The position numbers were made by a program, and so were the translations under genes. Shown here one piece after another: positions 3,794 to 26,036 of a DNA stretch of 32,287 nucleotides (the stretch's first letter is position 1; each line of letters begins with the position of its first letter). Below the pieces are notes generated by a model, which was not told the DNA's origin, made no database searches, and worked only from the letters and a program-made list of their open reading frames with translations. Location: the IMG/VR virus record IMGVR_UViG_3300032288_003512, positions 1-32,287 of that record; one strand, written 5' to 3'. The DNA is from a virus.

Positions 3794-3961
3794 ATGTGTA
3801 ACTGTAAGAAGAACAAACAACAAGAAGAACCGGTGGTACCACAGACACCTGAACAACTCCACGCAATTGAAATAACAGAGTGGGCCGGTGGAATGAATGT
3901 AGAAATTAAAAACCCAAATACAGATGAGAAAAGTAATAATGAGGGACCTGAGACAAACTGA
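3794..3961 (+). CDS. Tiny Cys-x-Cys protein, 55 aa
   Basis: A short open frame starts at ATG 3794 and ends at TGA 3959-3961. It begins MCNCKKNKQQEEP, then has a Pro/Gln/Glu-rich stretch and the segment EITEWAGGMNVEIKNPNTDE. Its 3' end overlaps the methyltransferase gene by 38 nt in another frame, as expected for translational coupling. The two cysteines at residues 2 and 4 could bind metal or, if the N-terminus is processed, be modified. Codon use matches the neighbours. No function can be assigned. Confidence 0.6.
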   Translation: MCNCKKNKQQEEPVVPQTPEQLHAIEITEWAGGMNVEIKNPNTDEKSNNEGPETN

Positions 3962-4460
3962 AGGTCTACAAGATTTAATTAAAGAGTTAGGAGATGTATC
4001 CGATAAGACTATGATTGAGATTGGTTCTTTTATCGGAGAATCAACCATAATGTTTGCAGAACATTTTAAACAAGTTATTGCGATTGACCCGTTCTTACCG
4101 AACTACGATCCTAAAGACCCAACAAGTAATTTTAACTTTGATGAAGTATTTCAAGAATTTAAAAATACAATCGAGGAGAAGAAAGATAAGGTAATCATTC
4201 ACAGAATGAAAAGTGATGACGCCGTTAAAGTATTAAAAGACAAATATGATTTTGTTTATATTGATGGACTACACACATATGAAGGTGTTAAAGAAGACAT
4301 TAAGAACTATCTACCACTGGTTAAGGAAGGTGGTGTAATTGGTGGTCACGACTACGGTACACAAGCCGAACATTTATTAGGTGTAACCAAGGCCGTAGAT
4401 GAGATGATTGGAAAACCTGATAAGGTGTTCAAAGATAATTCTTGGATAAAATATATATGA
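3924..4460 (+). CDS. Class I SAM-dependent methyltransferase, 178 aa
   Basis: This is predicted to transfer a methyl group from S-adenosylmethionine. Motif I is MIEIGSFIGEST (E32, G34, G38) and the following strand ends in AIDP (D55), which would hold the ribose. The second half has YDFVYIDGLHTYEGVKEDI (D114, H117, Y119) and GGVIGGHDY (H142, D143, Y144). This layout is typical of the Methyltransf_24 group, whose members often act on sugars or small molecules. Two glycosyltransferase genes follow directly (ATGA overlap), so a methylated glycan is the likely product. The start at 3924 gives a 38-nt overlap with the tiny gene upstream; an in-frame ATG at 3939 is an alternative. Confidence 0.8.
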   Translation: MRKVIMRDLRQTEGLQDLIKELGDVSDKTMIEIGSFIGESTIMFAEHFKQVIAIDPFLPNYDPKDPTSNFNFDEVFQEFKNTIEEKKDKVIIHRMKSDDAVKVLKDKYDFVYIDGLHTYEGVKEDIKNYLPLVKEGGVIGGHDYGTQAEHLLGVTKAVDEMIGKPDKVFKDNSWIKYI

Positions 4461-5185
4461 GAGTAGCGTTAGTTTGTATTGCAAAGAATGAAGACCCTTA
4501 TATTCAGGAATGGGTAGATTATCATCTCAAGTTAGGATTTGATAATATATTCATATATATGAATGATTGGAGAACAGATATTAATGACCCACAAGTTACC
4601 AAAATAGAATTTGATGGAATTAATCAACAGAGAAACGCATATACAAACTGGTTAGAAACAAATAGACAACACTTTGACTTTGCTGCATTCTTTGATGTGG
4701 ATGAGTTTCTTGTATTAAAGAAACATAACACAGTTCAAGAATTTGTATCAGGTTATGTTAATCACGCAGGTATCGGAATCAATTGGTACCTGTTTGGTAA
4801 TAACGGACACACAGAGATTGTTGATGGTGAGTACTCACAGATAAAAAGATTTACGATGAGACAATCTCAAATGAATGAACACATAAAGACAATACTCAAT
4901 TGTAGTTCAGGTTGTATGATGGATGTTCATAATCCTTATAATGGGAGAGTATCATCACCAAATGGTATAGTATTTAATGGTCCATTCAATAAACAAACTG
5001 ATGATTCAATTGCACAAATCAATCACTACTATTGTAAAACAAAAGGTGAATATATCAAGAAATGTGAAAGAGGTAGGGCGGATTCACCGGTATATACGAA
5101 CACATACGAAATAAACTATCATCCATATAACCATAATGATGTGGAGGATTTACACGCTTACAATTTTATGTATGGACAAAATTGA
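4457..5185 (+). CDS. Glycosyltransferase, GT92/GT2-like, 242 aa
   Basis: The N-terminus MRVALVCIAKNEDPYIQEWV matches the start of GT-A fold transferases of the GT92 (DUF23) and GT2 type, in which the Asn-Glu segment lies near the nucleotide-sugar site. A D-V-D motif (residues 80-82, in AAFFDVDEFL) would bind the metal. The late segment INHYYCKTKGEYIKKCERG (about 192-210) is characteristic of the GT92-like group. The sugar and acceptor cannot be read from sequence. The start at 4457 overlaps the methyltransferase stop (ATGA); an upstream TTG at 4442 is less likely. The protein is soluble, with no membrane anchor. Confidence 0.8.
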   Translation: MRVALVCIAKNEDPYIQEWVDYHLKLGFDNIFIYMNDWRTDINDPQVTKIEFDGINQQRNAYTNWLETNRQHFDFAAFFDVDEFLVLKKHNTVQEFVSGYVNHAGIGINWYLFGNNGHTEIVDGEYSQIKRFTMRQSQMNEHIKTILNCSSGCMMDVHNPYNGRVSSPNGIVFNGPFNKQTDDSIAQINHYYCKTKGEYIKKCERGRADSPVYTNTYEINYHPYNHNDVEDLHAYNFMYGQN

Positions 5186-5756
5186 ATTTATAATTCCAAC
5201 TTATAGTAGAATATCACATTTGGTAACACTACTTGGTTCTCTACAATCTCAGTCAAATCCCAATTGGACGGCACACATAGTTGCAGACTTTCCACCTGAA
5301 CAAACTCAAGAGGAAATAAAAAAGATTATTACTTTCTTTAACGACCCAAGATTTAGATTAACAATTCTTGCACAGAGATACCAAGATTGGGGACACACTC
5401 CAAGACAATATGGATTGGATAACGCAACAGAGACTTGGGTATGTATGAGTGGAGAAGACAATTACTATGTACCACATTTTGTTGATAGGATGTTGGAAGA
5501 AGGAAAGAACCATCACTTTGTTTATTGTGATATGGTTCATAATTGGACCGACAGACAATACATTCCAATTAAATCAGAACTACATTATGGTTTGATTGAT
5601 ATTGGAAACTTTATATGTAAGACCAATATGGCACAAAAAATAAGATTAAAAACAGAGTTTGAACACGCGGATTGGTTATTTATTGAAGAATTTAAAAAGA
5701 AGTTTGAACGCGCAAAAGTTAAAAAAGTATCCGGAGTATTATATGTCCACAATTGA
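5172..5756 (+). CDS. Glycosyltransferase family 2-like, 194 aa
   Basis: The N-terminus MDKIEFIIPTYSRISHLVTL is the usual first strand of GT2 GT-A folds (IPTYxR), followed by SLQSQSNPNWTAHIVAD. The expected DXD site appears as G94-E-D96-N in MSGEDNYYVPHF. The protein is shorter than many GT2 enzymes (usually 230 aa or more), but the catalytic N-terminal part is complete. The ATG at 5172 overlaps the previous gene by 14 nt; an extended frame with an ATG at 5136 would overlap by 50 nt and adds unlike sequence. The 3' end overlaps the large terminase gene by 14 nt, so the cassette is co-transcribed with terminase. Confidence 0.75.
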   Translation: MDKIEFIIPTYSRISHLVTLLGSLQSQSNPNWTAHIVADFPPEQTQEEIKKIITFFNDPRFRLTILAQRYQDWGHTPRQYGLDNATETWVCMSGEDNYYVPHFVDRMLEEGKNHHFVYCDMVHNWTDRQYIPIKSELHYGLIDIGNFICKTNMAQKIRLKTEFEHADWLFIEEFKKKFERAKVKKVSGVLYVHN

Positions 5757-7074
5757 TATAAATCCAACAAAGAGACAGAGTGAAGCGTGGAAATATCTCA
5801 CAGATGATAGAACCAATATTATTTTATTTGGTGGGTCAGCTGGTGGTGGTAAGTCTTGGTTGGGATGTTTATGGATTGTAACGATGTGTCTTCAATATGG
5901 AAACACAAGATACCTAATTGGTCGTACAGTATTAACTCAATTAAGATTAACAACACTCAATACACTATTTGACCTATTGAACTTTATGGGTCTAAAATCT
6001 GGTCAACACTTTACCTATAATGGTCAAAGTAATGTATTAACATTTTATAACAAGTCAGAAATTATATTCAAAGATTTACAATACAACCCATCAGATCCTA
6101 ACTATGATTCATTAGGTTCGTTGGAGATAACAGGTGCCTTTGTAGATGAGGCCAGTCAAATTTCAAGTCTTGCGTTTAGTATTATCAAATCCCGTATCAG
6201 ATATAAACTAAATGAGTATGGTCTAATACCAAAAGTATTATTAACCTGTAACCCATCACAGAATTGGTTGAAGAAAGATTTTTATATTCCACACATACAA
6301 AATAAATTAGAATATAACAAAGTTTTTATTCCAAGTTTACCATTAGACAACCCACACTTACCACCATCTTATATTGAGATGTTAAAGGAATTACCTCCAC
6401 AACAAAGAAGAAGATTATTGGAAGGTGATTGGGATTACTTAGATGAATCAGATAGTCTATTCAAGTTTGATGAAATATCAAATTGTATATATAAATATAT
6501 ACCTGATAATAATGACAAGAAATATATGACAGTCGATGTAGCAAGGTTTGGTGATGATAGGTCTGTGGTAATGATTTGGGTGGGACTGGTGGTCATATCT
6601 TGTCACATCTATACCAAACTATCAACCACAGAATTATCGTCTGAAATACGAGACCTAATAAGGTCACACGGAATCCACCCACAGAACATCATAGTGGATA
6701 GTGATGGTGTGGGTGGAGGAGTGGCCGATCAAATTAAGGGAACAAACTTTGTAAACAACTCAAGACCATTACACGAACAGAACTTCTCCAACCTTAAATC
6801 ACAGTGTTATGTAAAACTATCTGAACTATTTAAGGAAGGTAAAATAAGTTTAAACATATTGGAACCATCAATTGTGGAAGACTTGACACAAGAACTTCTT
6901 GCAGTTAAATTAAAAGACATAGATAAAGACAATAAGGTATCAGTTCAATCAAAAGATGAAATGAAAAAGGTATTAGGTAAATCACCTGACCTTTCAGATT
7001 GTTTGATGATGAGAATGTTACCGGAAATAAAAACCCAAAAAACTACTGGTAGATACAGTATTGCGATGTTATGA
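5743..7074 (+). CDS. terL: Terminase large subunit, 443 aa
   Basis: This is the ATP-driven DNA packaging motor with a nuclease that cuts the concatemer. The ATPase domain shows Walker A GGSAGGGKS (residues 30-38), Walker B ITGAFVDEA (D135, E136) and coupling motif LLTCNP (168-171). The RNase H-like nuclease domain has its acidic residues in MTVDVARFGDD (D265), IIVDSDGVGGG (D319) and LSDCLMM (D419). The length fits the family. The start at ATG 5743, giving MSTIDINPTKRQSEAW, is supported by the typical Q-motif-like N-terminus; further upstream the frame runs within the glycosyltransferase gene. It overlaps the next gene as ATGA. Confidence 0.95.
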   Translation: MSTIDINPTKRQSEAWKYLTDDRTNIILFGGSAGGGKSWLGCLWIVTMCLQYGNTRYLIGRTVLTQLRLTTLNTLFDLLNFMGLKSGQHFTYNGQSNVLTFYNKSEIIFKDLQYNPSDPNYDSLGSLEITGAFVDEASQISSLAFSIIKSRIRYKLNEYGLIPKVLLTCNPSQNWLKKDFYIPHIQNKLEYNKVFIPSLPLDNPHLPPSYIEMLKELPPQQRRRLLEGDWDYLDESDSLFKFDEISNCIYKYIPDNNDKKYMTVDVARFGDDRSVVMIWVGLVVISCHIYTKLSTTELSSEIRDLIRSHGIHPQNIIVDSDGVGGGVADQIKGTNFVNNSRPLHEQNFSNLKSQCYVKLSELFKEGKISLNILEPSIVEDLTQELLAVKLKDIDKDNKVSVQSKDEMKKVLGKSPDLSDCLMMRMLPEIKTQKTTGRYSIAML

Positions 7075-7888
7075 TAAAATTTAAATTAAACGATATAGAA
7101 TATAAAATACCAGAGTTTATATCTATTGAGAACTATTCTAAAATCTATAAAGTAAAAGATTTATTCAGTGATGATTACTTTGCGGCAAAGATTATTAACA
7201 TCATCACAGACGCACCATTAGAAGAACTATTGGAAGCAGACTATGAGGAAGTACAATACTTGGCCGGTTACATTATGTCACAAATACCACTTGAGAAACC
7301 TAAGTTCATAGATAGGTTTGAATTGGATGGTGTTCATTATGGTTTCTTTCCTAATTGGAAGGAGTTATCATTTGCGGAGTTTGTAGATATGGATACCATC
7401 TCAACGAAAAAACCTGATGAGTTACTTAGTATGTTACACATCCTTGCGGCCGTAATGTATAGACCAATCGTAGAAGAAAAATCTGAACACGATTATAGAA
7501 TAGAAAAATATAATGTGGAAACGATGAAGGAACGGTCCGAACTGTTCAAAAAGAAATTAGATGTTAAGTACATATTAGGTGCGCAATTTTTTTTTATCAA
7601 CTTCGCAAACAGATATTTAAATTATTCCCATCTGTCTTCGATCCCGACACTCTCGATATGGATGAAAATCAAACTGATGTGGGTGATGAGGAAATGGATA
7701 TTCGCAGCAATTTTCAAAAGACCTATGGATGGTTCGTTATCGTCAACAAAGTTACTGGAAACGATTTTACAAAACACGAACTTGTCTACCAAAAAAAGTT
7801 AATTGAAGTTCTCAATCAGTTGTCATATTTATTAGATTACGACCGAGAACAAGTTAAATTACAAAAAAAACAAACTAAACAGATTTAA
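7071..7888 (+). CDS. Tail-assembly-chaperone-like protein, read through a -1 frameshift
   Basis: In frame 0 from ATG 7071, the first 175 codons look like a conserved phage protein (for example HYGFFPNWKELSFAEFVDMD and LHILAAVMYRPIVEE). I recall this type as a tail-assembly-chaperone-like family in Bacteroidota phages. At nine T (7587-7595) the meaningful frame changes. Frame 0 runs on to 7802 with peptide that looks like shadow sequence, while the -1 frame gives FFFYQLRKQIFKLFPSVFDPDTL and then a coherent C-terminus to TAA at 7888. Joining 7071-7595 and 7595-7888 gives 272 aa. In siphophages, tail chaperones are often made in short and -1 frameshifted long forms. A lost T in a ten-T run, by mutation or sequencing error, is the alternative. 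Confidence 0.65.
7587..7635 (+). promoter_or_regulatory. Candidate -1 frameshift site (T9 run plus small hairpin)
   Basis: The nine T at 7587-7595 are read TTT TTT TTT in frame 0 and contain the slippery form T TTT TTT, which allows both tRNAs to re-pair after slipping back. ACAGAT at 7609-7614 can pair with ATCTGT at 7630-7635, leaving a 15-nt loop. The hairpin begins 13 nt after the run but is weak. The site marks where two coherent coding frames meet. Confidence 0.45.
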
Positions 7889-7895
7889 AACCTAC

Positions 7896-7917
7896 AATAT
7901 TTATATTTAGTAATATA
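7896..7917 (+). promoter_or_regulatory. Promoter element (TATATTTA box) ahead of the tail operon
   Basis: The stretch AATATTTATATTTAG followed by TAATATA is repeated base for base at 28406-28427. Its core TATATTTA (7902-7909) fits the Bacteroidota -7 box except for the last base. No TTTG was found at the -33 distance. The start codon at 7917 follows at once, so the transcript would be leaderless or nearly so. Confidence 0.45.
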
Positions 7918-8930
7918 TGGTTAATTATAAACAAATTATTCAAGACCTAAGTGGTATCGCGTACTATCACAACCAAATAAAATCGTTTGGTTATGGTGAT
8001 TTGACACAGGTTACTATGGATATTGAGACCAAACAGGAACCTGTATATACAAAAATGTATGTAGTTCCTGGTGCAGTAACACTTGCACAGAATAGAATCC
8101 TATATAATTTTTCTATTATATTAATGGACAGAATTAATGAGGATAGGTCCAATCAGGAAGATGTGATGAGTGATACCTTGGAAATTTGTAAGGATGTATT
8201 TACCATACTATACCTATCATATACATCAGAATGGGGAGGGTTTTCTGTGGATTATACACCACTTTGGGACCCTAATGTTACACCATTCTTGGAAAGATTT
8301 GAGACAATCTTGGGTGGATGGACGATGAATTTGACGATTGAACAACCATTTGATTACAACCAGTGTGTTCTTCCGTTCTTATCCGGTGTAACTCTACCTT
8401 CACCAACACAAGTACAATATGTAAACTTCAAACAATTATTGGGAGATTTACAGAATCTAGCAGACAATCATCCACAAATCAAGTCATATAATTTTGGTGA
8501 TGTTGATGAGTTTACAGATAATCCAACAACAAAACAATCACCACTATATACAAGAATGTATGTGGTACCAAACGACACAGTTTTATCTCAGAATGAATTA
8601 TTGTATAATCTACAGATAATTATTGCAGATAGAATTAATTCAGATTATTCCAATCAAAGAGATGTTATGAACGATACCTTGGAGATTGTAAAAGATATAT
8701 TCACAAAGTTTTATCTAAGTCAATATCAAGCAGAATGGAGTCCAACTGTTGAACCTTTCCTTGAGAGATTTGAAGACATTCTTGGTGGATGGACAATAAC
8801 ATTAACACTAACACAACCTTTTGATTATAACAGATGTATCGTACCTGAAAGACCGTTCACACCGGGTAAAAAATGGTTTGAACTAGCAGAATTGTGGAAC
8901 GAAATATCAAAAGATTGGAAAAATATATAA
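7917..8930 (+). CDS. Tail or neck protein with tandem duplicated domain, 337 aa
   Basis: The protein consists of two related domains. Domain 1 (about residues 2-163) and domain 2 (about 166-305) align along their length: VNYKQIIQDLSGIAYYHNQI with VNFKQLLGDLQNLADNHPQI, MYVVPGAVTLAQNRILYN with MYVVPNDTVLSQNELLYN, and FLERFETILGGWTMNLTIEQ with FLERFEDILGGWTITLTLTQ. A short tail follows. The size and mixed alpha/beta look of each unit recall neck or tail-completion proteins, but I do not recognise the family with confidence. Placement directly after the chaperone-like gene and before the fibre gene supports a structural tail role. Its own promoter lies directly upstream. Confidence 0.75.
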   Translation: MVNYKQIIQDLSGIAYYHNQIKSFGYGDLTQVTMDIETKQEPVYTKMYVVPGAVTLAQNRILYNFSIILMDRINEDRSNQEDVMSDTLEICKDVFTILYLSYTSEWGGFSVDYTPLWDPNVTPFLERFETILGGWTMNLTIEQPFDYNQCVLPFLSGVTLPSPTQVQYVNFKQLLGDLQNLADNHPQIKSYNFGDVDEFTDNPTTKQSPLYTRMYVVPNDTVLSQNELLYNLQIIIADRINSDYSNQRDVMNDTLEIVKDIFTKFYLSQYQAEWSPTVEPFLERFEDILGGWTITLTLTQPFDYNRCIVPERPFTPGKKWFELAELWNEISKDWKNI

Positions 8931-8948
8931 AACACTAATAACATTATT

Positions 8949-11900
8949 ATGGGTCAATTAACTAATCAGTATGTTTCACAATCGTATCAAGGATTATTAA
9001 ATCTTGAGAACGCAAATACGGGTGTTACATCAACATTACAATATGTAACCGATGGTATCGGTAATAGGATACCTATGTTGGCATCAACATCATCTGTTGT
9101 CATTACCGGTTCATTCAGAGGTGATGGTAGCGGATTAACAGGTATTACAGCAAATATTCCTGCAGGTACTGTATCAGGTTCACAACAAATTGTAAACTTA
9201 GGATTTGCAACAACTTCATCATTAAACACATTATCTGGTTCTATTGCGGTGACTGATTTGGGTCAAGACAATAGATTAACATCATTAGAACAATTCACAG
9301 GTTCAATTAATACAGGATATGTAAGTGAAGCAGAGTTTGGTACATATACCTCATCGATGAATAACTTTACAACCTCAATTGATAGTAGAGTTGACGCATT
9401 AGAAATTGAGACCGGTAGTTTACAAAATCAAATCAATCAAAAATTAAATACAAGTTCATTCAATTCTTATACAAGTAGTAATGACGCAAAGGTTAATGAT
9501 TTAATTTCAAAGACAGGTAGTTACGCAACTACTGGTTCAAATATATTCAACGGAACACAAACAATTACAGGATCAGTTAATATAACAGGAAATATCAGTG
9601 CAACATCGGCATCATTCCAATATGTAAATACAATATATGAAACCGCTTCAGTAATATACTCAAGTGGTTCAAACCAATTTGGTGACGCATCAAACGATAC
9701 ACAAACATTATGGGGTACAGTTAATTTACCAACAGGACCATTAGTTATCACAGGTAGTGTAACTGCATCAGCAGGATTTGTTGGTAACTTAACAGGTACG
9801 GCAAGTTATGCAACACAAGCGTTATCAGCATCATATGCACCTGATACAACTAACACAGGAAGTTTAGTTTCAGATGTTACATTAGGAATAGTTAGTTCTT
9901 CTATTGTTGTTACAAAGGGTAATGGTTCAACAACTTCATTTTCAATTGATAATGTTCAATCATCATCATTTGCAACCAACGCTTTATCATCATCACACGC
10001 AATCAACGCAACAAGTGCAAGTTATTCTAATAACTCAACTTCATCCTCATTTGCACAAGATGCGGTTAGTTCAAGTTTTGCACAGAACGCAGTAAGTAGT
10101 TCATATTCTGTAAACTCAGATACTTCTATTTCGTCAAGTTTTGCACAAAATGCAACTTCAGCTAGCTTTGCACAAACTTCAATAAGTTCATCATTCGCAG
10201 ACAATGCTGGTTTATTAAATGGTACAGGTTCAGGTGTATTTGCAACAACAGGTTCCAATACATTTGTTGGTGACCAAACAATTACTGGTTCATTAGTAGT
10301 GTCAGGTTCTCAAAATATTATAAGAGGTAATGTTGATGTTACAGGTTCATTAAATGTTAGAAGTGGTAGTCTTGAGGTTATATCAAATAATACCACAATA
10401 AATCCTGATTTATATTTAACAAGTTCACAACCAGGTCAATCAAATATTATTTTAGGATGGAGTGAAAACCCATCTGCGGCTGGTTTGGCATCAAATCAAG
10501 CAAACTATACAGGTTCTTATAGAATTACAGGTTCAAACAATATTGTAACATTACCGATTCTTAGACCAACATCTATTGATTTTAATACTACAGCAACAGC
10601 ATATATATCAGGTTCAGGTAACATTATTACTAGTAATGGTTCAGGAATATTATTAAATGGAGGTTCACTATTATTCCCTAAAACACAAGGTAATTTTCTT
10701 AGTCACAATTCAAATATATATTTGAATTTAATTACTTCTTCAATAGCGGGTGGTCATCCTGTGATACAAAATAATTTATTATTTGGAGGAACTTTAGATA
10801 TAAATCATACATCAGGAACATTTACCGCAAATGGAAATGCCGTACTTAACGGTACTGTAACATCAACACAAACATTTGTTACAAATGTAAGACCAACTAT
10901 TGTTGGTAATAATATTATAGGTAGTGTTAATTTAAATGACATTAGTAGTTCAATCTTATATCAACAAAACTACAATAACTCAGCACTTACAATTAATAAT
11001 CATTTAAGTTCTTCAGGAATTGCAAATAACTCATTGTCATTTTTTAATAATGCAGTATTTGGTGGTTCGGCAAATACGCCATTAAATATTTGGGTATCTG
11101 GTTCACAGTCATCAAATGTAAGTAGACTTATTAGTGATAACTTAATTGGTGGTAGAAATATTATTATTTCATCATCATTTGTAAGTTCATCTAACGCAAA
11201 TACAGTTGCAACAGTCATATATGGTAACGCATTATCAGTATCAGGTTCACATACAACAGGTACAAATGGTGGTTCTGCATTCTTTGGTAGATTTAACGCA
11301 ACCGGTTCACTTCAAGAAAGTACACAAGATACAATCTTTGTTGTAGGTTCAGGTACCGCAGTTGGTGCAAGAAGAAACGCAATTAGAATTGATAATAATA
11401 GTAATACAACAATAACAGGTTCTCTTGGTGTAACTGGTTCAGTAAATATTAATGGTAATACTTTAATTACCGGTTCACTCACACTTAGTGGTTCAATAAA
11501 CCCTGAGTTAATTGTAATTGGTGATACTGTAATGACAGGTTCTTTAAGAGTTACTGGTTCATTAATATCAACAGGTTCTATAGAGATAGCAAGTAGTTCA
11601 GGTGACTTTTATATATACGGTCATAAGATGTTCAACACCGCGGAGTTTTGGTCTACACAAACTCAGAGTGGAAGTGCTGGTGTAAGTGGTTCAATTAACT
11701 TTAATAATTCAGGAAGTTTACACGGTGTTAGTTTAGTGAATGGAACAGATATAACGGTTGCAAATGCTGGTACATATAATATTCAATTCTCAGCACAAAT
11801 TGAAACATCAGCAGGTGCGGATACTGCATATGTGTGGTATAAAAAGAACGGAACAAATATTGCTGATAGTGCAACAAAAGTTTCGTTAGCAAATAATACA

Positions 11901-12065
11901 GCACAAGTAATGACTGTGAATATTATTGACGAAGCATCAGCAAATGATTATTATAATTTAGGTTATCAATTCACAAATGGTAATGCAACAATATTAGCAG
12001 AAACCGCAAGTGGAAATATACCTGTAATACCATCAGTAATTGCAACAGTAACACAAGTTAGATAA
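8949..12065 (+). CDS. Repeat-rich tail fibre with C1q-like C-terminal domain, 1038 aa
   Basis: This is a long Ser/Thr/Gly/Asn-rich fibre protein, probably a trimer that contacts the host. The N-terminus (1-60) carries TSTLQYVTDGIGNRIPMLAS, likely the attachment end. Then come repeated short strands of the type ITGSLxVSG and TGSVNITG, typical of beta-rich fibre shafts, and an octapeptide array of the SSSFAQNA type (about residues 337-420). The segment NLTGTASYATQALSASYA is common in fibres of environmental Bacteroidota phages. The C-terminal 140 residues (GTYNIQFSAQIETSAGADTA, then VWYKKNGTNIADS, ending PSVIATVTQVR) resemble a C1q/TNF-like jelly roll that trimerises fibres and binds receptors. 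Function is inferred from composition and fold. Confidence 0.8.
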   Translation: MGQLTNQYVSQSYQGLLNLENANTGVTSTLQYVTDGIGNRIPMLASTSSVVITGSFRGDGSGLTGITANIPAGTVSGSQQIVNLGFATTSSLNTLSGSIAVTDLGQDNRLTSLEQFTGSINTGYVSEAEFGTYTSSMNNFTTSIDSRVDALEIETGSLQNQINQKLNTSSFNSYTSSNDAKVNDLISKTGSYATTGSNIFNGTQTITGSVNITGNISATSASFQYVNTIYETASVIYSSGSNQFGDASNDTQTLWGTVNLPTGPLVITGSVTASAGFVGNLTGTASYATQALSASYAPDTTNTGSLVSDVTLGIVSSSIVVTKGNGSTTSFSIDNVQSSSFATNALSSSHAINATSASYSNNSTSSSFAQDAVSSSFAQNAVSSSYSVNSDTSISSSFAQNATSASFAQTSISSSFADNAGLLNGTGSGVFATTGSNTFVGDQTITGSLVVSGSQNIIRGNVDVTGSLNVRSGSLEVISNNTTINPDLYLTSSQPGQSNIILGWSENPSAAGLASNQANYTGSYRITGSNNIVTLPILRPTSIDFNTTATAYISGSGNIITSNGSGILLNGGSLLFPKTQGNFLSHNSNIYLNLITSSIAGGHPVIQNNLLFGGTLDINHTSGTFTANGNAVLNGTVTSTQTFVTNVRPTIVGNNIIGSVNLNDISSSILYQQNYNNSALTINNHLSSSGIANNSLSFFNNAVFGGSANTPLNIWVSGSQSSNVSRLISDNLIGGRNIIISSSFVSSSNANTVATVIYGNALSVSGSHTTGTNGGSAFFGRFNATGSLQESTQDTIFVVGSGTAVGARRNAIRIDNNSNTTITGSLGVTGSVNINGNTLITGSLTLSGSINPELIVIGDTVMTGSLRVTGSLISTGSIEIASSSGDFYIYGHKMFNTAEFWSTQTQSGSAGVSGSINFNNSGSLHGVSLVNGTDITVANAGTYNIQFSAQIETSAGADTAYVWYKKNGTNIADSATKVSLANNTAQVMTVNIIDEASANDYYNLGYQFTNGNATILAETASGNIPVIPSVIATVTQVR
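9958..10206 (+). repeat. Octapeptide-coding repeat array in the fibre gene
   Basis: About ten degenerate 24-bp units encode variants of SSSFAQNA (SSFATNAL, SSSHAINA, SASYSNNS, SSSFAQDA, SSSFAQNA, SSSYSVNS, SASFAQTS, SSSFADNA). Units differ at both the DNA and the protein level. The regular eight-residue period suggests a repetitive shaft structure. Such arrays can gain or lose units by slippage or recombination. Confidence 0.7.
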
Positions 12066-17494: not shown

Positions 17495-20257
17495 ATGACA
17501 GGAAGTATTTTAGTTACATTTGATGAAGATATTAATGCAAGAGGTGTTGATGAGGTTCAAGTTTCATTAATACCTAATAATAATATTGCTTTACTTACAT
17601 TACAAAAAAGAATATTTACAGATATTACCAATTTATATTCTTCACCTATAGATAATAACGATGGGTTTCGTATCACTGTAAATAGATTATTTGCAAACAG
17701 AAATAGTTACTTAAATGTTACACATATTCAATATACAACAGATGATGAAGGTGGTGATAGAGGTATTAAAGAAACAACATTATCACCAATATCAGTAACA
17801 GTTAGTCAATTTGCAGATACATATACTTTTACTGGTATTACTCAATTATCAAATACATATGATTTTGAATATAGAATAGATTGTTCTACTGATGTATGTT
17901 ATTTGAGTCAAAGTGGTTTTACTGGTGGTGTCGGACCTGAAATAACCGATATTGATATTTTAAGTACAGGTAATCTAATAGTTAGTGGTGAATATACATC
18001 ATATAGTGGTGTATCGGCCAATAGAATTATACAATTAGACCCAACAGGTAATAGATTAACATTATTTCAATATGGTACAGGATTTAGTCCTGATACAACA
18101 AATGATGTTGTTGAATTATCAGATGGTAAATTAGTTATTGCTGGTCAATTCACAAGTTATAGTGGTGTTACTGCAAGTGGTGTGATTGGGTTAAATTCAA
18201 ATGGTACTGTAAATACAGGATTTACATATGGTACGGGATTTAATCTTGGACCTGCTGTTATAGAAAAACAATCAGATGATAAGGTTATTATTGGTGGTGC
18301 ATTTTGGACTTATAGTGGTCAAACATCACCAAAAATTATAAGATTAAATTCAAATGGTACAATAGATAATTCATTTGTTGTTGGTTCTGGATTTACTTTT
18401 GGTGGAACATATACTAATACAAATAGTTATGTAACCTCATTAGCAATACAATCTGATGGAAAGATTTTAGTTGGCGGTGTATTTGACGCTTATAATGGAA
18501 CAAGTATTACAGGTATTAGTTCATCAAAAATTACAAGATTAAATTCTGATGGTACTCTTGATAATACTTTTAATGCGGGTTCAAATGTTGATGGTGATGT
18601 AATTGGAATTGCAGTACAATCAGATGGTAAAATAATATTAGTTGGATACTTTGATTATTATAATGGAGTATTGGTAAATTCAATAGTTAGATTAAATTCT
18701 GATGGAACAAGAGATACTTCATTTAATATGGGAACAGGATTTAGTGATATTACTTTAGCAGTAGAATTACAACCTGATGGAAAGATTTTAGTCGGTGGTC
18801 AGTTTACAAGTTTTAATGGTGTAACAAGAAATAGATTGTGTCGTTTAAATTCAAACGGTAGTTTGGATACGACATTTAATGCAAGTCTTGATAGTAGTGT
18901 ACAAGCACTTGCAGTTACATCAAGAGGTATAATATATGCCGGTGGTATTTTTACAAATTCTAATGGTAAAAGTGTAGAAAGATTTGTTAGTTTATATTCT
19001 GATGGTTCAAATAATTATTGTGATTATTTACCAACACCAACTCCTACTCCAACAGTTACCATAACACCAGATCCAACACCAACACCTACACCAACACCTA
19101 CTCCAACAATAACAATAACTCCAACTGTAACTATTACACCTAATCCTGTAGATGTTCAATTTAATTTTTATGCAAATACAAATAGATATGTAAATGAGAT
19201 TAATATTGATGAAGGAACGGGAAATGTGATGACTGCAAATAATACTGGTCCTGCATATGATGCAGCTAAGTTATTTAATTCTTCAGGAACAGATATTGCA
19301 AGTGTTGGTGACGATTTAAAACACGCAATACCTAACACTTGTAACACAATTGAAAAGTTATCGGGTACTACATATCTTATGGGTGGAGGCTATACAGAAT
19401 GGGTTAGTTTATCACCACCTCCTTTTGGAACTAGTATATTAGATGTTAACTATAATAATACACTTAATGGAAGTTTCTATTTAGATACAATTAACTATTT
19501 GAACTATGGTTCTTCAACTGATAACAGAACACAAAAGATAAGAAATAGAAAAACTTTATCAGGTTTCATATCTGCTAACAATAGGAATATTTATTATTTT
19601 GATTCATACCCAAGTAGTGTAAATATATCTACTAATGGAACCGTATATGACTTTGTTGAACAATCAGATAATAAAATAATTTTTGTTGGTGAATTTACAA
19701 CTGCCAGTGGTACAAGTTATAATAGAATTTTTAGAACAAATTCAGGAATGACTAGTATAGATACAAGTTTTACATCAGGAACAGGTTTTGATGGACCGGT
19801 ATTTGGTATTGCAGTTCAATCAGATAATAAATTAGTTTGTGTTGGTAACTTCTCAAGTTATTCAGGATATTCTTCTTCAAGAATTATAAGACTTAATTCA
19901 AATGGTACTGTTGATACAACATTCAATGTTGGAACAGGAATTTCAACCGCATCCTCTACAAATAGATTAAAAGTAAAAATTGATAGTACTGATAGAGTTT
20001 ATGTAATTGGTGATACACTGTCAAATTATAATGGAACAACAGTAAATGGATTAATAAGACTTAGTTCCACAGGTGTTTTAGATACTACATTTAATTCTTT
20101 ATTGGGAACAGGTTTTTATAGTTCGCGTGTTGCAAATAAAGGTGTTTATAGTATAGACATTCAATCAGACGATAAAATTATTGTTGGAGGATATTTTAAT
20201 ACATTTAATGGTAGTGCATCATCCGCATTAATTAGGTTCAATACAAATATTTATTAA
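17495..20257 (+). CDS. Tail protein with two beta-propellers joined by a Pro-Thr linker, 920 aa
   Basis: Residues 1-145 form an N-terminal domain of unknown type, probably the attachment end. Residues about 148-505 hold seven repeats of the Delta-60/DUF5122 type, each with a core like QSDGKILVGGVF followed by RLNSNGTVDT: the cores begin at DILSTGNLIVSG, ELSDGKLVIAG, KQSDDKVIIGG, IQSDGKILVGG, VQSDGKIILVG, LQPDGKILVGG and TSRGIIYAGG. Seven repeats fit a seven-bladed propeller. A Pro-Thr linker (512-552) follows. The second part (555-920) has four clear repeats (EQSDNKIIFVG, VQSDNKLVCVG, IDSTDRVYVIG, IQSDDKIIVGG) after about three divergent ones. Binding of a host glycan or receptor is inferred. 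Confidence 0.75.
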   Translation: MTGSILVTFDEDINARGVDEVQVSLIPNNNIALLTLQKRIFTDITNLYSSPIDNNDGFRITVNRLFANRNSYLNVTHIQYTTDDEGGDRGIKETTLSPISVTVSQFADTYTFTGITQLSNTYDFEYRIDCSTDVCYLSQSGFTGGVGPEITDIDILSTGNLIVSGEYTSYSGVSANRIIQLDPTGNRLTLFQYGTGFSPDTTNDVVELSDGKLVIAGQFTSYSGVTASGVIGLNSNGTVNTGFTYGTGFNLGPAVIEKQSDDKVIIGGAFWTYSGQTSPKIIRLNSNGTIDNSFVVGSGFTFGGTYTNTNSYVTSLAIQSDGKILVGGVFDAYNGTSITGISSSKITRLNSDGTLDNTFNAGSNVDGDVIGIAVQSDGKIILVGYFDYYNGVLVNSIVRLNSDGTRDTSFNMGTGFSDITLAVELQPDGKILVGGQFTSFNGVTRNRLCRLNSNGSLDTTFNASLDSSVQALAVTSRGIIYAGGIFTNSNGKSVERFVSLYSDGSNNYCDYLPTPTPTPTVTITPDPTPTPTPTPTPTITITPTVTITPNPVDVQFNFYANTNRYVNEINIDEGTGNVMTANNTGPAYDAAKLFNSSGTDIASVGDDLKHAIPNTCNTIEKLSGTTYLMGGGYTEWVSLSPPPFGTSILDVNYNNTLNGSFYLDTINYLNYGSSTDNRTQKIRNRKTLSGFISANNRNIYYFDSYPSSVNISTNGTVYDFVEQSDNKIIFVGEFTTASGTSYNRIFRTNSGMTSIDTSFTSGTGFDGPVFGIAVQSDNKLVCVGNFSSYSGYSSSRIIRLNSNGTVDTTFNVGTGISTASSTNRLKVKIDSTDRVYVIGDTLSNYNGTTVNGLIRLSSTGVLDTTFNSLLGTGFYSSRVANKGVYSIDIQSDDKIIVGGYFNTFNGSASSALIRFNTNIY
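19030..19150 (+). repeat. Pro-Thr linker repeat in the double propeller gene
   Basis: CCA/CCT and ACA/ACT codons alternate to encode PTPTPTPT with interspersed TITIT and VTIT. The linker would be stiff and extended and would separate the two propellers. The next gene carries a similar array at 20728-20839. Confidence 0.8.
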
Positions 20258-20261
20258 TATT

Positions 20262-21086
20262 ATGAGTAGAAAATATATAAAACAAGAAATTTTACAGGAT
20301 TTTGTTTATCCTAATAATGAAGTATCACAATATGATGTTGATAATATTGTTCAGGATATTAATAACAATTCTGTTAATGGTGTTGTAACAAGTTTTAGTG
20401 CGACAACCGTATCAAGTACATCAATAACAATAAGTTATAGTCAAACTTGGAATTTAAATAACGCAGAACCTTGGATTAGAAATTCAAATGTTTTGAGTAT
20501 TATTTCTGTTCATATGTTGGCGCCGGGTCAAGATTATTATAAACCTTGGAGAGTTGTACATAGTAGAGGTTCTTTTACAATTACAGCCACAACTTTTACT
20601 GAAACATCAACTTTTACCGTAACAGCATCTTCAGTAGGATTAACAACATTCCCAAGTGGTACATATTACTTTGAAGTAAGATTCATAGGTCATAAAAGTT
20701 TTTATCCTGTTTGTGTTAATTTGAATATAACACCACCAACCCCAACTCCTACACCTACTCCTACACCAACATCAACACCTACTCCTACACCAACAGGACC
20801 TGGTCCAACACCTACACCTACACCAACTCCTACATCATTAAATGAGTTTAGTTTCTGTGGTAGAGGTAATAGTGTTTCTGAGTCTTGTAACGATGCGGCA
20901 TTATATTCAAGAACATTCTATTCAGATTGTAACGCACCATCATTTGGTGTTGGATGTTTTGTTTATACAGATAGTGGTGGTACAACACCATTAACAGGTT
21001 ATACTAACATATTTATGAATGGTGCCAATTGGGACATAAACTCATCAACTGGTCAAGTAACAGCATACTCATCAGTACAGTGTTAA
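20262..21086 (+). CDS. Tail-associated adhesin-like protein with Pro-Thr linker, 274 aa
   Basis: It has three parts. Residues 1-155 form a beta-rich domain (VVTSFSATTVSSTSITISYS, and YYFEVRFIGHKSFYPVCVNL). Residues 156-193 are a PTPTPT linker interrupted by TSTP and GPGP. Residues 195-274 are a small Cys-containing domain (FCGRGNSVSESCNDA, then DCNAPSFGVGCFVYTD, and GANWDINSSTGQVTAYSS with a final Cys). The last domain resembles small exposed modules on tail proteins of Bacteroidota phages. The linker matches the one in the preceding gene, so both probably sit at the tail tip. The gene starts 4 nt after the propeller gene. Host contact is inferred from the layout. Confidence 0.7.
   Translation: MSRKYIKQEILQDFVYPNNEVSQYDVDNIVQDINNNSVNGVVTSFSATTVSSTSITISYSQTWNLNNAEPWIRNSNVLSIISVHMLAPGQDYYKPWRVVHSRGSFTITATTFTETSTFTVTASSVGLTTFPSGTYYFEVRFIGHKSFYPVCVNLNITPPTPTPTPTPTPTSTPTPTPTGPGPTPTPTPTPTSLNEFSFCGRGNSVSESCNDAALYSRTFYSDCNAPSFGVGCFVYTDSGGTTPLTGYTNIFMNGANWDINSSTGQVTAYSSVQC
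20728..20839 (+). repeat. Pro-Thr linker repeat in the adhesin-like gene
   Basis: Repeats of CCTACACCTACTCC-type sequence encode PTPTPT units. The array is alike in DNA to 19030-19150 in the gene upstream, about 1.6 kb away in the same orientation, and could support recombination between the two genes. Confidence 0.75.
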
Positions 21087-21305: not shown

Positions 21306-23981
21306 ATGGCCGGTAAAAAGATTTTTATTGAGTATGACATAGACAGTAGTGATTTAAAGATTGCTAATGGTGAAACCCTATCCCTTACTCAACAACTTAG
21401 AATATTAAAGAAAGAACTACAAAGAGGTGATTTAAAACCCGAACAATTTGATATTCTTCGTAAAAAGATTGGTGACACAGAAGACCAAATTGCAAAGACA
21501 ACCGTAAAGTCTAAGGACTTTTTTGGTGTTTTGGCAAGTCTACCTGGTCCTGTAGGTCAGTTTGGTAGTTCATTATTAGGGGTAGTTGATACTCTTAAAG
21601 TGTTTAGTTCATTTACATTCAAGGATATTAAAAACTCTTTGGGTGATATTGGAGACGATGTTGTTGAGATTACAGAGAATTTTACAGGATTAAATAAGGC
21701 CACAAAAGACCAAACTGAATCTAATAAAGATTTATCAAACTCATCAAATGAAAGTAGTAAATCTTTAGGTGATCAAGCAACTGCCGCAGGTACTACCGCA
21801 GCGGCAATACAAAATCAAAAGAAAGAAACTCAATTATTAACAATTGAAACTGATAAGAATGGTCAAGCGATGATTAAGGCGGTAAAACCTTATAGTCAAA
21901 TGACCGAGGCAGAACGAGAATTGTTTAAAGAACAAAGAAATAGGGCGGTACATACAGGTGAGTTGACTAAAGCCACAAATGCACAATCTGCGGCAAGTAA
22001 AACGGCAACTGTATCTACTGTAACACAAACAGTTGCAACTAACACATTAACTCTCGCACAAAGGGCGGCAACATTTGCAACAAATGCGTTAAAGATTGCA
22101 CTTGCATCTTTGGGTATTGGTCTTGTTATTATTGCTGTTAGTGCATTAGTTGAGTTATTAGCAGAATTTTTCACAGGTACTAAGGCCGCAGAAAGGGCAC
22201 AAAAGGACTTTAATGATGAGTTAGAAAGAACTAATACATTATTAGATTTAGACCTAAAAGCGGCAAAAAGAAGACAAGATTTAAGAGTTGCAGAACTTAA
22301 GGCACAAGGTGCAACAGAAGAAGAAGTTCAACAACAATCTCTTAAAGGACTAAAAGAAAATCTTGCGTTAAAACAAAAGGCGTTAGAAGATTCAAGAGTA
22401 TTATATAATAAAACTCTAAAAAGAACTGATGAACAAGCGTTAGAGGATTTAAAGAAAATTGGTGACCAAGAACTTAAGTTAGACCAAGAAGTAAAAGACC
22501 TAAAAAACGATATTAGAATTGCTGAACTTCAAGATGATATTAAGGCAGCAGAAAAAAGAAAAGAACAACAAAAACAAGCAGGAGATAAACTTCTTCAACA
22601 ACAAAAGGAATTAGAACAAAAGAGATTAAACGATACCAAGACAGCAGAGGAACAACTTGCTGAATTGATTAGAGGTAATTCTGAATTAAGGATTAGAGAC
22701 GAAAGAGAGAGACAATTCCAAGAATTAAAGAATCAAAAACAAGTTGAGGAAGAAAAGATTAAGGCGTTATTAATTTCAGAAGAATTAAGAGGTAAACTTC
22801 TTGAACAAGTTAGATTAAAGTATGGTTACAAACTTCTTAATATGAACCAAAAGTTTGTAGAAGAAGATTTAAAACAATTAAAAGAGTTTCAAAGAAAGAG
22901 AGAGGATATTGAAATTGCAGCAATTGAAGATGTTAGAAAGAGAGAAGATAGAGAAAGGGCGACAAAATTACAAAGAGACCTTGAAGATCTTGAAGAAGAT
23001 AAGGAATTTGCTAAGTTATCTGAAGAAGCAAAGGAAAAGATTAGACAAGATATTCGTAGAAAATATGCGAATGAGGCAAGAGAAGAACAAAAATCAAGAG
23101 ACAAGGAAGACCAAGACGATAGACTTAAGAAACTTGATGATGAGTTAAGATTCTTACAAATCCGTCAGGAAGCAATTAGGGCCGGTACTAAGGCATTCTT
23201 TGATAGTCAAAGAGAGATTCTTGCAGTTGCAGAAAGGAGAGAAATTGAACTTGCTGAGGGTAAGGAAAAAGAACTTACTGCAATTAAAGAGAAGTATGCG
23301 AAGTTAAGAAAGGATATTGACCAACAAGAAAAACTTGCAACACTATCTGCCATCGGTGAGACTATTGGTGCAATCAGTAACTTAACCGCTGCAATTGCAT
23401 CATCTTATGATGAGGAGGCTAAGACAAGTAAAGAGGCGTTTGAAAAGAGAAAGAAACTTCAAATTGCAACCGCAACTATGTCAGCGGCGTCAGGTATTAT
23501 CCAAATACTTGCACAACCTTCAACACTTCCATCACCATTTGATTGGATTGTAAAAGGTATCAACGCGGCCGCACTTGCTATTAGTACTGCGGTACAAATT
23601 AAAAATATTAAGAACACACAATTTGAAGGTGGTGGTGGTCAAAGACAAGCCGGAACTGTAAGGGGTATGGCGAATGGTGGTATTGTAAGAGGACCTGGTG
23701 GACCTAAATCCGACAGTGTTCCAACTATGTTATCAAATGGAGAGGCTGTAATGACCTCTGGTGCTGTGACTATGTTCGCACCATTACTATCTATGATGAA
23801 TCAAATGGGTGGTGGTGCGTCATTCAGTTCAGACCTGAGTGTTGCAAGTCCTGATAACCCAATTAGAAACAATCCGGCACAAGAACAAACACCAATAATA
23901 ATGAAAACCTATGTTGTTGAGAGGGAATTAACAACATCACAGGAGAAACAAGCAAGATTAAAAGATTTAAGTACATTATAA
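21306..23981 (+). CDS. Tape measure protein, 891 aa
   Basis: It sets tail length by extending through the growing tube. The N-terminal part has helical segments (LRILKKELQRGDLKPEQFDI) and a Gly-rich LASLPGPVGQFGSSLLGVVD. Residues about 262-288 form a hydrophobic segment (LASLGIGLVIIAVSALVELL). A long charged coiled coil follows (about 290-680, rich in Lys, Glu, Gln and Arg). The C-terminal region has a second hydrophobic zone (about 717-770) and ends with the tape-measure signature GGIVRGPGGPKSDSVPTMLS and NGEAVMTSGAVTMF. By the usual rule of about 1.5 angstroms per residue the tail would be roughly 130 nm long. The gene sits between tail-tip genes and head genes, which is an unusual place. 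Confidence 0.88.
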   Translation: MAGKKIFIEYDIDSSDLKIANGETLSLTQQLRILKKELQRGDLKPEQFDILRKKIGDTEDQIAKTTVKSKDFFGVLASLPGPVGQFGSSLLGVVDTLKVFSSFTFKDIKNSLGDIGDDVVEITENFTGLNKATKDQTESNKDLSNSSNESSKSLGDQATAAGTTAAAIQNQKKETQLLTIETDKNGQAMIKAVKPYSQMTEAERELFKEQRNRAVHTGELTKATNAQSAASKTATVSTVTQTVATNTLTLAQRAATFATNALKIALASLGIGLVIIAVSALVELLAEFFTGTKAAERAQKDFNDELERTNTLLDLDLKAAKRRQDLRVAELKAQGATEEEVQQQSLKGLKENLALKQKALEDSRVLYNKTLKRTDEQALEDLKKIGDQELKLDQEVKDLKNDIRIAELQDDIKAAEKRKEQQKQAGDKLLQQQKELEQKRLNDTKTAEEQLAELIRGNSELRIRDERERQFQELKNQKQVEEEKIKALLISEELRGKLLEQVRLKYGYKLLNMNQKFVEEDLKQLKEFQRKREDIEIAAIEDVRKREDRERATKLQRDLEDLEEDKEFAKLSEEAKEKIRQDIRRKYANEAREEQKSRDKEDQDDRLKKLDDELRFLQIRQEAIRAGTKAFFDSQREILAVAERREIELAEGKEKELTAIKEKYAKLRKDIDQQEKLATLSAIGETIGAISNLTAAIASSYDEEAKTSKEAFEKRKKLQIATATMSAASGIIQILAQPSTLPSPFDWIVKGINAAALAISTAVQIKNIKNTQFEGGGGQRQAGTVRGMANGGIVRGPGGPKSDSVPTMLSNGEAVMTSGAVTMFAPLLSMMNQMGGGASFSSDLSVASPDNPIRNNPAQEQTPIIMKTYVVERELTTSQEKQARLKDLSTL

Positions 23982-24123: not shown

Positions 24124-24146
24124 AAATATTTATATTTTAATATATG
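24124..24146 (+). promoter_or_regulatory. Promoter element ahead of the head operon
   Basis: AAATATTTATATTTT followed by AATATATG is a variant of the element at 7896 and 28406, lacking two bases in the middle. The -7-like octamer TATATTTT is at 24131-24138. The ATG of the protease gene (24144) overlaps the end of the element. No TTTG is seen at the -33 distance. Confidence 0.4.
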
Positions 24147-26036
24147 AAGAAAGATAAAATATACGAACTAAGAATTGATGAGGATGATGAAATATCAGGT
24201 ATTGATTCAATTTCTTTAGTTTCAGAACCAGCCATAGAAATTTCTTGGGTGGCATTTAATAAAGTTAAGTCTGAAGATTTTCATATTCCCGATGGTGAAG
24301 ATGAAAAATACATTCAAAAACTACTTGCAACAGCACAAGACGAACAAGAACTATTTGACGAAGGTTGGGTGGTTGATAGTATTGAGTTATTGGATGGTAA
24401 GGAAGGATTTATTTCAACTAACCCTAATGGACCTTCAATAGAAGATGAACAAGAATATAATGTTAGATACAAGTATATTCTAAACCCAAGAATTACAGGT
24501 CAGGGTGCAATTATCCCTACAACAAGAGACTTTTGTAAGACTCTTATCAATCGTAATTATGTTTGGAGAGTAGAGGATATGGATAATACACAGAATGACT
24601 TTGGTCAGTCTGCTATGGTATGGAGAGGTGGTTACAATTGTCGTCATACTTGGTCTCGTATCAAATATAGAAAAGACGCAACCATTACAAATAAGGCGTC
24701 AGTTAATAAAGGTAAAGTTGAAGTTAATGGTTTTCCAAATGACTTAGTTCCTGATACAAGAGTATTAGGATATTCTGAACCTGATACGGTAACAAATAAA
24801 ACTCTTGCAAACCCTTCACCAAGTACAATTAAAAACTTGGGATTGTCAAAAGAGAAATTTAATGGTGTGGATGTATTTGGTTTTAAAACAAGATATTTCC
24901 ATATGTGTCCTGGCGCAACCAAATTGTTTGAACATCTTGTATCTATGCCAGTGGATGACGATACTAAAGGAATGATTAGAAGTGCAGCACAAGTCGCGGA
25001 TAATGTTTTTAGATTGGAAGAAGAAGTTATTAACTCAAATATGGCCACACCTGACCAATTGGAACAAGCAACAATAATGGTTGATGATTTTAAAGATATA
25101 ATTGGTGAAGTAGATAAAATTACAGGAATGAAACACGATGTTTCATTTATGGATGGTCATATAGAAAAAATTAAAGAATATCTTGAAGAAGATTTAGGAT
25201 ATGTAAACGATTTACCACCATTTGTGGATGAAGGTATTAGAAAGAAAAAGAAGAAGAAACAAGAGGATTTTGAAACATATAATGACTATCCTGAATCGGC
25301 AGTAAACAACGCAAAGCGTGCATTAAAATATGCTGAAGAAAATGGATGGGGTTCTTGTGGCACACCTGTGGGAAAACAGCGTGCAAACCAACTCGCAAAC
25401 AAAGAGAACATTTCGGAAGAAACGATTGCCAGAATGGCTTCATTTGAAAGACATAGACAAAACAAAGATGTTCCTTATGATGAAGGATGTGGTGGACTTA
25501 TGTGGGACGCTTGGGGTGGAACAGAAGGAATTGAATGGGCACAAAGAAAGTTGGAACAAATTGAAAAACAAAAAATGTCAAAACAAAAATTCCAAACCGA
25601 TGATGAGAAAAGAATTGTGATTGGACCTGCTATGATTCCTGATCTTAAGATATTCCGTAAAGATAAAAATGGTGACCCATACTATGTGACATTTACTGCT
25701 GAGACAATCAAGATGATTGCTGAGAAGTATATGAGAAACAAATATATTGATAATAACGATACCGAACATAATGGTAAGGCTGCACAAGATGTTTATGTGA
25801 TTGAGTCTTGGATTAAAGAAGACGAACAAGATAAGTCAAATAAATACGGAGATGAAGATTTACCAATTGGAACTTGGTTTGTTTCTATGAAGGTTAAAAA
25901 TGATTTAGTTTGGGAAGCAATTAAAAATAAGGAATTGAACGGATTCAGTGTATCAGGATACTTTGAGGAGATAGAACAATTCTACAGAGAACAAGAATTT
26001 TTAAGAGAAGTAGCTAAAATTTTAAAAGATTTATAG
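24144..26036 (+). CDS. XkdF-like prohead protease fused to N-terminal head domains, 630 aa
   Basis: The C-terminal part (about 480-615) matches the XkdF-like putative prohead serine protease family: KRIVIGPAMIPDLKIFRKD, YYVTFTAETIKMIAEKYM, and WFVSMKVKNDLVWEAIKN followed by GFSVSGYFEE. It would cleave scaffold and capsid proteins during maturation. The middle (about 380-470) is a conserved phage module, YPESAVNNAKRALKYAEENG, then CGTPVGKQRANQLANKENIS and CGGLMWDAWGGTEGIEWAQR. The N-terminal third (ISLVSEPAIEISWVAF, RRG-type RGGYNCRHTW) loosely resembles a minor head protein (MuF-like), which is uncertain. An in-frame ATG at 25575 (residue 478), preceded by an A-rich stretch, lies exactly at the protease boundary and might give a separate protease product. 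Confidence 0.8.
   Translation: MKKDKIYELRIDEDDEISGIDSISLVSEPAIEISWVAFNKVKSEDFHIPDGEDEKYIQKLLATAQDEQELFDEGWVVDSIELLDGKEGFISTNPNGPSIEDEQEYNVRYKYILNPRITGQGAIIPTTRDFCKTLINRNYVWRVEDMDNTQNDFGQSAMVWRGGYNCRHTWSRIKYRKDATITNKASVNKGKVEVNGFPNDLVPDTRVLGYSEPDTVTNKTLANPSPSTIKNLGLSKEKFNGVDVFGFKTRYFHMCPGATKLFEHLVSMPVDDDTKGMIRSAAQVADNVFRLEEEVINSNMATPDQLEQATIMVDDFKDIIGEVDKITGMKHDVSFMDGHIEKIKEYLEEDLGYVNDLPPFVDEGIRKKKKKKQEDFETYNDYPESAVNNAKRALKYAEENGWGSCGTPVGKQRANQLANKENISEETIARMASFERHRQNKDVPYDEGCGGLMWDAWGGTEGIEWAQRKLEQIEKQKMSKQKFQTDDEKRIVIGPAMIPDLKIFRKDKNGDPYYVTFTAETIKMIAEKYMRNKYIDNNDTEHNGKAAQDVYVIESWIKEDEQDKSNKYGDEDLPIGTWFVSMKVKNDLVWEAIKNKELNGFSVSGYFEEIEQFYREQEFLREVAKILKDL

Follow-up and report, generated by a model that had tools for sequence, protein, structure and literature searches.

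The gene at positions 7071 to 7888 (plus strand) of the window is very probably expressed by programmed -1 ribosomal frameshifting. The window is the whole stretch of DNA analyzed here, i.e., the IMG/VR virus contig IMGVR_UViG_3300032288_003512 (32,287 bases; 33% G+C; no tRNA genes found). Comparative analysis of relatives shows that the slip site, the -1 frame, and both alternative C-terminal tails are conserved. We consider it likely that the explanation holds as a whole, namely, that one mRNA gives two predicted proteins by a -1 slip, that both tails are selected, and that the products form a chaperone pair like G/GT of phage lambda.

The frameshift open reading frame (ORF) begins with an ATG at 7071, which overlaps the stop codon (7072 to 7074) of the ORF of the terminase large subunit (TerL). 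Its first 175 codons (7071 to 7595, plus strand, frame 0) encode the N-terminal half common to both products and end in a run of nine T's (T9; 7587 to 7595, plus strand), of which the last seven (7589 to 7595, plus strand) form the slippery heptamer T_TTT_TTT in register with frame 0. Frame 0 continues for 68 codons and a TAA stop at 7800 to 7802 (7596 to 7802, plus strand), predicting a short form of 243 amino acids (aa) (175 aa shared plus a 68-aa tail). Read from 7595, frame -1 is open for 97 codons before a TAA stop at 7886 to 7888 (7595 to 7888, plus strand), so a fused long form would comprise 175 plus 97 residues, i.e., 272 aa. The earlier note had described two coherent frames meeting at T9 and products of 243 and 272 aa; the coordinates of the run proved exact, and the ORF reading bore out both lengths. 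Both parts of the long form are well conserved, the N-terminal half with a mean column identity of 74% and 24 invariant residues (45 relatives) and the -1 tail with 65% (46 relatives), in the latter case from the slip site onward.

According to the proposed mechanism, unshifted ribosomes would stay in frame 0 and produce the 243-aa protein. A fraction of ribosomes would slip back one base on T_TTT_TTT, with the Phe-tRNAs in the P site and the A site both re-pairing, and would produce the 272-aa protein, which would have the same 175 aa followed by the 97-aa tail.

Two scans of viral contigs, one for each half of the gene, yielded 127 loci, some of which were on the same contig. With the window included, the C-terminal half was in frame -1 relative to the N-terminal half at 128 of 128 loci containing both halves (some on the same contig), and T TTT TTT stood in register directly before the frame switch at all 128 (again with some on the same contig). 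Protein conservation therefore changes frame at the site, as is expected of programmed -1 frameshift genes. In a recount over all loci, the heptamer, which has the canonical X_XXY_YYZ form of such genes, was present in every one of the 164 distinct gene sequences from the window's clade and likewise at all 134 analyzable loci from a distant clade (described below). No in-frame (frame 0) fusion of the two halves was found among the 164 distinct sequences or the 134 distant-clade loci. The codon preceding the two slip codons was TTT, ACT, CTT, CAT, AGT, TCT, or CGT, its last base always being T, and the T runs occurred in the contexts ACT TTT TTT, CTT TTT TTT T, and NTT TTT TTT T; several relatives had only seven T's (CAA ACT TTT TTT ACC). 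The run thus varies in length and position while the core heptamer is fixed, indicating that the heptamer is conserved rather than the length of the T run. At the two slip positions, Phe was encoded by TTT without exception, and 26% of the Phe codons in the N-terminal half were TTC.

The distant clade was reached by a Foldseek search against predicted viral structures (BFVD), in which 37 proteins matched at an E value of ≤0.001, including one of Nonlabens phage P12024S. None of these 37 proteins had a known function, all being uncharacterized or unnamed phage proteins. In the sister record of this phage, P12024L, gene 40 lies directly after the terminase gene and matches the profile of the N-terminal half (hhalign E value, 2.9e-7; 26% identity). 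Gene 40 carries T9 with T_TTT_TTT; its frame-0 tail contains YHLGNDLGIYTQ, its -1 continuation reads FFLSFRERLRDLYPEL...KWGWYHTF, and the -1 stretch spanning the slip is FFLSFRER. In the record, the -1 part is annotated as a gene in its own right (gene 41, with an ATG start inside the -1 frame); at 24473 to 24640 of P12024L (L200), this gene corresponds to the downstream portion of gene 40's -1 frame. By Hmmscan, the gene 41 stretch matched phrog_38404 and distant-clade members matched phrog_32199, each described as "unknown function"; the two families each appear to represent one half of a single frameshifted protein.

Scans seeded with P12024L and one of its relatives gave the 134 analyzable loci of the distant clade, which is about 26% identical to the window's clade. 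All 134 had T_TTT_TTT followed by a -1 tail of 80 to 92 codons, and the two clades have homologous -1 tails (hhalign E value, 7e-6). In the distant clade, the T run is displaced against the codons by one base (NTT TTT TTT T rather than TTT TTT TTT), and the same seven T's are kept. A scan of bacterial genomes with the profile of the N-terminal half detected no relatives, and hence no prophage or host was found. A further structural relative in BFVD is R9VW65 of Flavobacterium phage 6H (L199; KC959568), whose gene (10352 to 10927) lies within the stretch 10046 to 10927 (minus strand); it has a similar-looking C-terminal continuation in another frame, with no T_TTT_TTT and an overlap of only 7 nt.

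These comparisons bear on three other explanations of the frame switch. The earlier note had weighed programmed slippage on T TTT TTT against the loss of a T and had proposed a comparison of homologues, which we carried out: the frame break and the heptamer were conserved in the homologues, no single-frame relative was found, and programmed slippage was strongly supported by the heptamer counts in both clades. Homopolymer runs are prone to error, and a single gene could have been split by a mistake in assembly or sequencing or by the recent disappearance of one T; however, every distinct relative and the cultured phage have the same frame relation, and none is fused in frame 0. The relatives thus refute the lost T and the assembly error alike, leaving them next to no probability. 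Two separate genes, the -1 part being translated from its own start codon, would match the annotation of P12024L, where gene 41 has an internal ATG. Against this, no ATG occurs before codon +15 in 46 of 46 clusters, nor is there a -1 ATG up to codon +40 in 34 of 38 from the distant clade. Given the absence of start codons and the onset of conservation at the slip site, an independent start of the -1 part is very unlikely, and we rejected an internal start for lack of an early ATG. Transcriptional slippage, in which RNA polymerase would add or drop U residues on the T run and a mixed mRNA population would encode the two products, is favored by the T9 run, which is long enough for polymerase slippage, and by the fact that no RNA stimulator was found. 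Folding compared with shuffled sequences revealed no downstream stimulatory hairpin (mean z, -0.5 to 0.0, versus -0.2 to -0.7 in control windows) in a search confined to hairpins; a stimulatory downstream structure is usual, although not obligatory, in programmed -1 frameshift genes. However, several relatives have just seven T's, and the invariant part is a heptamer registered to the codons. Polymerase slippage is the less likely process, given the T7 versions and the retained codon register, and we regard it as distinctly improbable. We infer that the slip takes place on the ribosome and not during transcription.

The frame-0 continuation after the slip site had been taken in the earlier note for a shadow peptide, which the comparative data contradict. 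Both C termini are, on the evidence of substitution patterns, under purifying selection, with 204 nt coding in two frames. Frame 0 was open for 62 to 72 codons (most often 68) and ended at a conserved stop in 83 of 83 complete nonredundant relatives, while the +1 frame in the same relatives closed after 0 to 33 codons. One further sequence (L042) was aberrant, with a frame 0 of 85 codons and a shortened -1 frame. When the -1 codons were redrawn synonymously, frame 0 was equally long in a mean of 0.7% of draws. We also counted frame-0 stops at the sites where a stop could be made (i.e., Leu, Ile, and Val codons before A or G and Met codons before A): there were 0 at 321 sites in the overlap, 619 at 1,246 sites in the N-terminal half, and 137 at 197 sites past the frame-0 stop. 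The 321 sites do not include 77 Met codons before G, which cannot make a stop. The distant clade had 0 stops at 203 such sites in the overlap versus 696 at 1,078 in the N-terminal half.

Synonymous change was likewise reduced. Among distant pairs, 65% of fourfold-degenerate third positions were identical in the overlap, compared with 45 to 47% in the N-terminal half and about 30% beyond the overlap. Frame-0 residue identity in the overlap was 0.45 versus 0.33 in redraws (excess, 0.12), and the controls were 0.38 versus 0.33 in the N-terminal half (excess, 0.05) and 0.28 versus 0.27 past the overlap (excess, 0.01). The corresponding values for the distant clade were 0.36 versus 0.27 in the overlap (excess, about 0.08) and 0.27 versus 0.26 in the N-terminal half (excess, 0.01), with an excess of 0.06 in a small stretch beyond. 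Relative to single-coding controls, the overlap therefore combines stop avoidance with reduced synonymous change, as is expected of dual-coding DNA. The clearest single position is the frame-0 TGG codon for Trp 204 (7680 to 7682, plus strand), which is invariant; the -1 residue at this position varies among Met, Leu, and Val, always written xTG, and the next base is always G.

The two tails differ in character within the window's clade: reading frame 0 gives a strongly basic tail (mean net charge, +10; pI 10.8), and the same DNA read in frame -1 is acidic (pI 4.8). The frame-0 tail was neutral to acidic in six members of the distant clade that were checked, so the basic charge is not a general property. 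Nor is the long frame-0 tail universal: in the Inhavirus branch (P12024L and relatives), it has 16 to 25 codons, which is within chance (P = 0.12 to 0.22). As read from the alignments, both tails are kept in all examined relatives except this one small group. There is, in our judgment, an even chance that in a widespread group of phages the slip site selects between two overlapping C-terminal domains that are both fully functional, as opposed to producing a truncated and an extended chaperone, and that the frame-0 tail equips the short form for a task distinct from that of the long form.

The genomic position of the gene is unusual and conserved. TerL (5659 to 7074, plus strand) lies immediately upstream and is 44% identical to the TerL of Flavobacterium phage 11b; the TTG start of its ORF is probably placed too far upstream. 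The frameshift gene directly followed the terminase gene in 16 of 16 larger relatives checked. The next gene (7917 to 8930, plus strand) matches phrog_30964 in two stretches and has its counterpart as a neighbor in P12024L; its 337-aa ORF looks like a tandem duplication of a domain that is single (138 aa) in P12024L. A gene with matches to the PHROG tail length tape measure (21306 to 23981, plus strand) lies 13.4 kb downstream of the frameshift gene, and the distance of about 14 kb given in the earlier note was right. A tape-measure homologue was present in 16 of 16 relatives, in most of them about 12 to 17 kb downstream if the contigs are circularly permuted, and this trait is thus conserved in the group. 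The gene order common to P12024L and the window is TerL, the frameshift gene, phrog_30964, phrog_29822, tape measure, protease, capsid, and phrog_19091.

Several other features of these genomes were seen along the way. A methyltransferase-like ORF and two glycosyltransferase-like ORFs, as read from the sequence, occupy 3924 to 5756 of the window between the putative small and large terminase genes. A long ORF at 24144 to 26036 has a C-terminal Peptidase_S78_2 (XkdF-like protease) domain preceded by about 450 residues, some of which gave a weak match to a portal protein profile; the protease protein of P12024L is shorter (349 aa). The stretches 8949 to 12065, 17495 to 20257, and 20262 to 21086 are of low complexity and tail fiber-like, with SSFAQNAVSSS-type repeats and PTPTPTPT stretches. 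The 45155-base record G006 (behind L105) has two tape measure-like matches (3 to 1859 and 32892 to 35261) and is perhaps an overlong circular assembly or a chimera.

Regarding function, our best guess is a lambda G/GT-like tail chaperone, judging from the recoding and from the neck and tail genes in the neighborhood. In such a pair, the shared half would bind the tape-measure protein, the -1 tail would recruit the tail tube protein, and the frame-0 tail would provide the short form with an additional module, one absent from lambda gpG. Judged by its sequence, the gene shows the G/GT pattern of two forms, one short and one lengthened by frameshifting, that have an N-terminal domain in common, and it lies elsewhere than between the tail tube and tape-measure genes. 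Sequence searches of Pfam, NCBIfam, and the PDB gave no convincing family, comparison with the lambda G sequence found nothing, and no sequence or Foldseek match to any characterized tail chaperone was obtained. In the AF2 models, the short form (mean pLDDT, 77) shows a beta hairpin and, after it, helices, and the -1 tail, folded apart from the short form, is all helical (pLDDT, 68). A Foldseek search against the PDB gave no matches at an E value of ≤0.001. In a second look (VIA), the HK97 tail chaperone 2ob9 ranked first (Z, 3.7; rmsd, 4.2; 72 aligned), a model-based match that is within the chance range and is suggestive at most. Of the designation "tail-chaperone-like" in the earlier note, the pairing of a short and a long form around a shared N-terminal domain stood; the designation gained no sequence match, the structural hint was weak, and the position is unusual. 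Because the gene lies outside the usual position and its homology is at most tentative, we describe the gene as chaperone-like and do not file it as a member of the family.

Two alternative views of what the products do need to be considered. Frame 0 might be open merely to carry unshifted ribosomes toward the next gene (i.e., for translational coupling or mRNA protection) and not for its peptide, a view that gains from part of the distant clade, in which frame 0 ends near the -1 stop (79 to 84 of 92 codons). Nonetheless, frame-0 identity exceeds that of the redraws in both clades, which argues for selection at the level of residues; moreover, Trp 204 is invariant and the frame-0 stop holds its position inside the overlap. 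We thus consider mere ribosome passage rather unlikely. The programmed -1 frameshift gene may instead have another structural role, e.g., as a head-completion, neck, or packaging partner, because it adjoins the terminase gene and is far from the tape-measure gene. The TerL adjacency in the 16 relatives and in cultured P12024L, together with the absence of recognized chaperone homology, favors this role. On the other hand, a short and long pair with a common N-terminal domain is a hallmark of G/GT chaperones, no other chaperone candidate was noticed before the tape-measure gene in the window (in a reading short of an all-frame search), and the HK97 chaperone tops the structural matches, if weakly. 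We regard another structural role as possible but doubtful, and a tail chaperone remains the reading that we prefer.

With respect to annotation, what could have been a sequencing flaw turns out to be a recoding site with good support, seen in one cultured genus and in two large uncultured phage groups, and two public families of "unknown" proteins are recognized as the apparent two parts of a single frameshifted protein. A selected tail can also belong to the unshifted product, encoded in the overlap, a region that is often dismissed as a remnant during annotation. A search for tail chaperones by adjacency to the tape-measure gene would miss the present phage group.

Among known systems, genes 40 and 41 of P12024L are true relatives of the window gene: they share its place after TerL, T9 with T_TTT_TTT, the -1 continuation, and the same neighbor families (including tape measure, protease, and capsid). 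They differ in that the frame-0 tail has just 25 codons, the tape-measure gene is about 6.4 kb away, and the annotation is of two hypothetical proteins. The alphavirus 6K/TF trans-frame proteins also arise by a -1 slip that yields an alternative C terminus from codons used in frame 0 as well; however, frame 0 there runs on into a longer polyprotein, and the proteins and viruses are unrelated to those described here. For the phage systems, the literature drawn on comprised portions of PMC5009743, PMC6316719, and PMC10274946. According to PMC5009743, frameshifting of this kind in long-tailed phages usually occurs in tail chaperone genes, and lambda gpG/gpGT resembles the present case in its -1 programmed frameshift and its short and long forms with a common N-terminal part, the long form being minor (30:1). 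The lambda gene differs in adjoining the major tail and tape-measure genes and has no sequence similarity to the window gene. The frame-0 tail after the slip also differs, having 5 codons in lambda and 8 in TP901-1 versus 68 in the window gene. The predicted tail chaperone pair of Bacillus phage SPP1, gp17.5 and gp17.5*, is described in the portion of PMC6316719 used as arising by a -1 shift on a T-rich heptamer (UUUUUUC), again with a common N-terminal part and two different tails, and its gene pair, unlike ours, sits directly before the tape-measure gene. There, gp17.5 has 173 aa, of which 112 aa are shared with gp17.5* (297 aa), so the frame-0 and -1 tails have 61 and 185 aa, respectively. 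A long overlap therefore has a precedent and is not unique to the present gene; that portion of PMC6316719 contained no report of selection on the SPP1 frame-0 tail. What the present gene adds to these precedents is evidence for selection on both tails in two deep clades, together with its odd genomic position.
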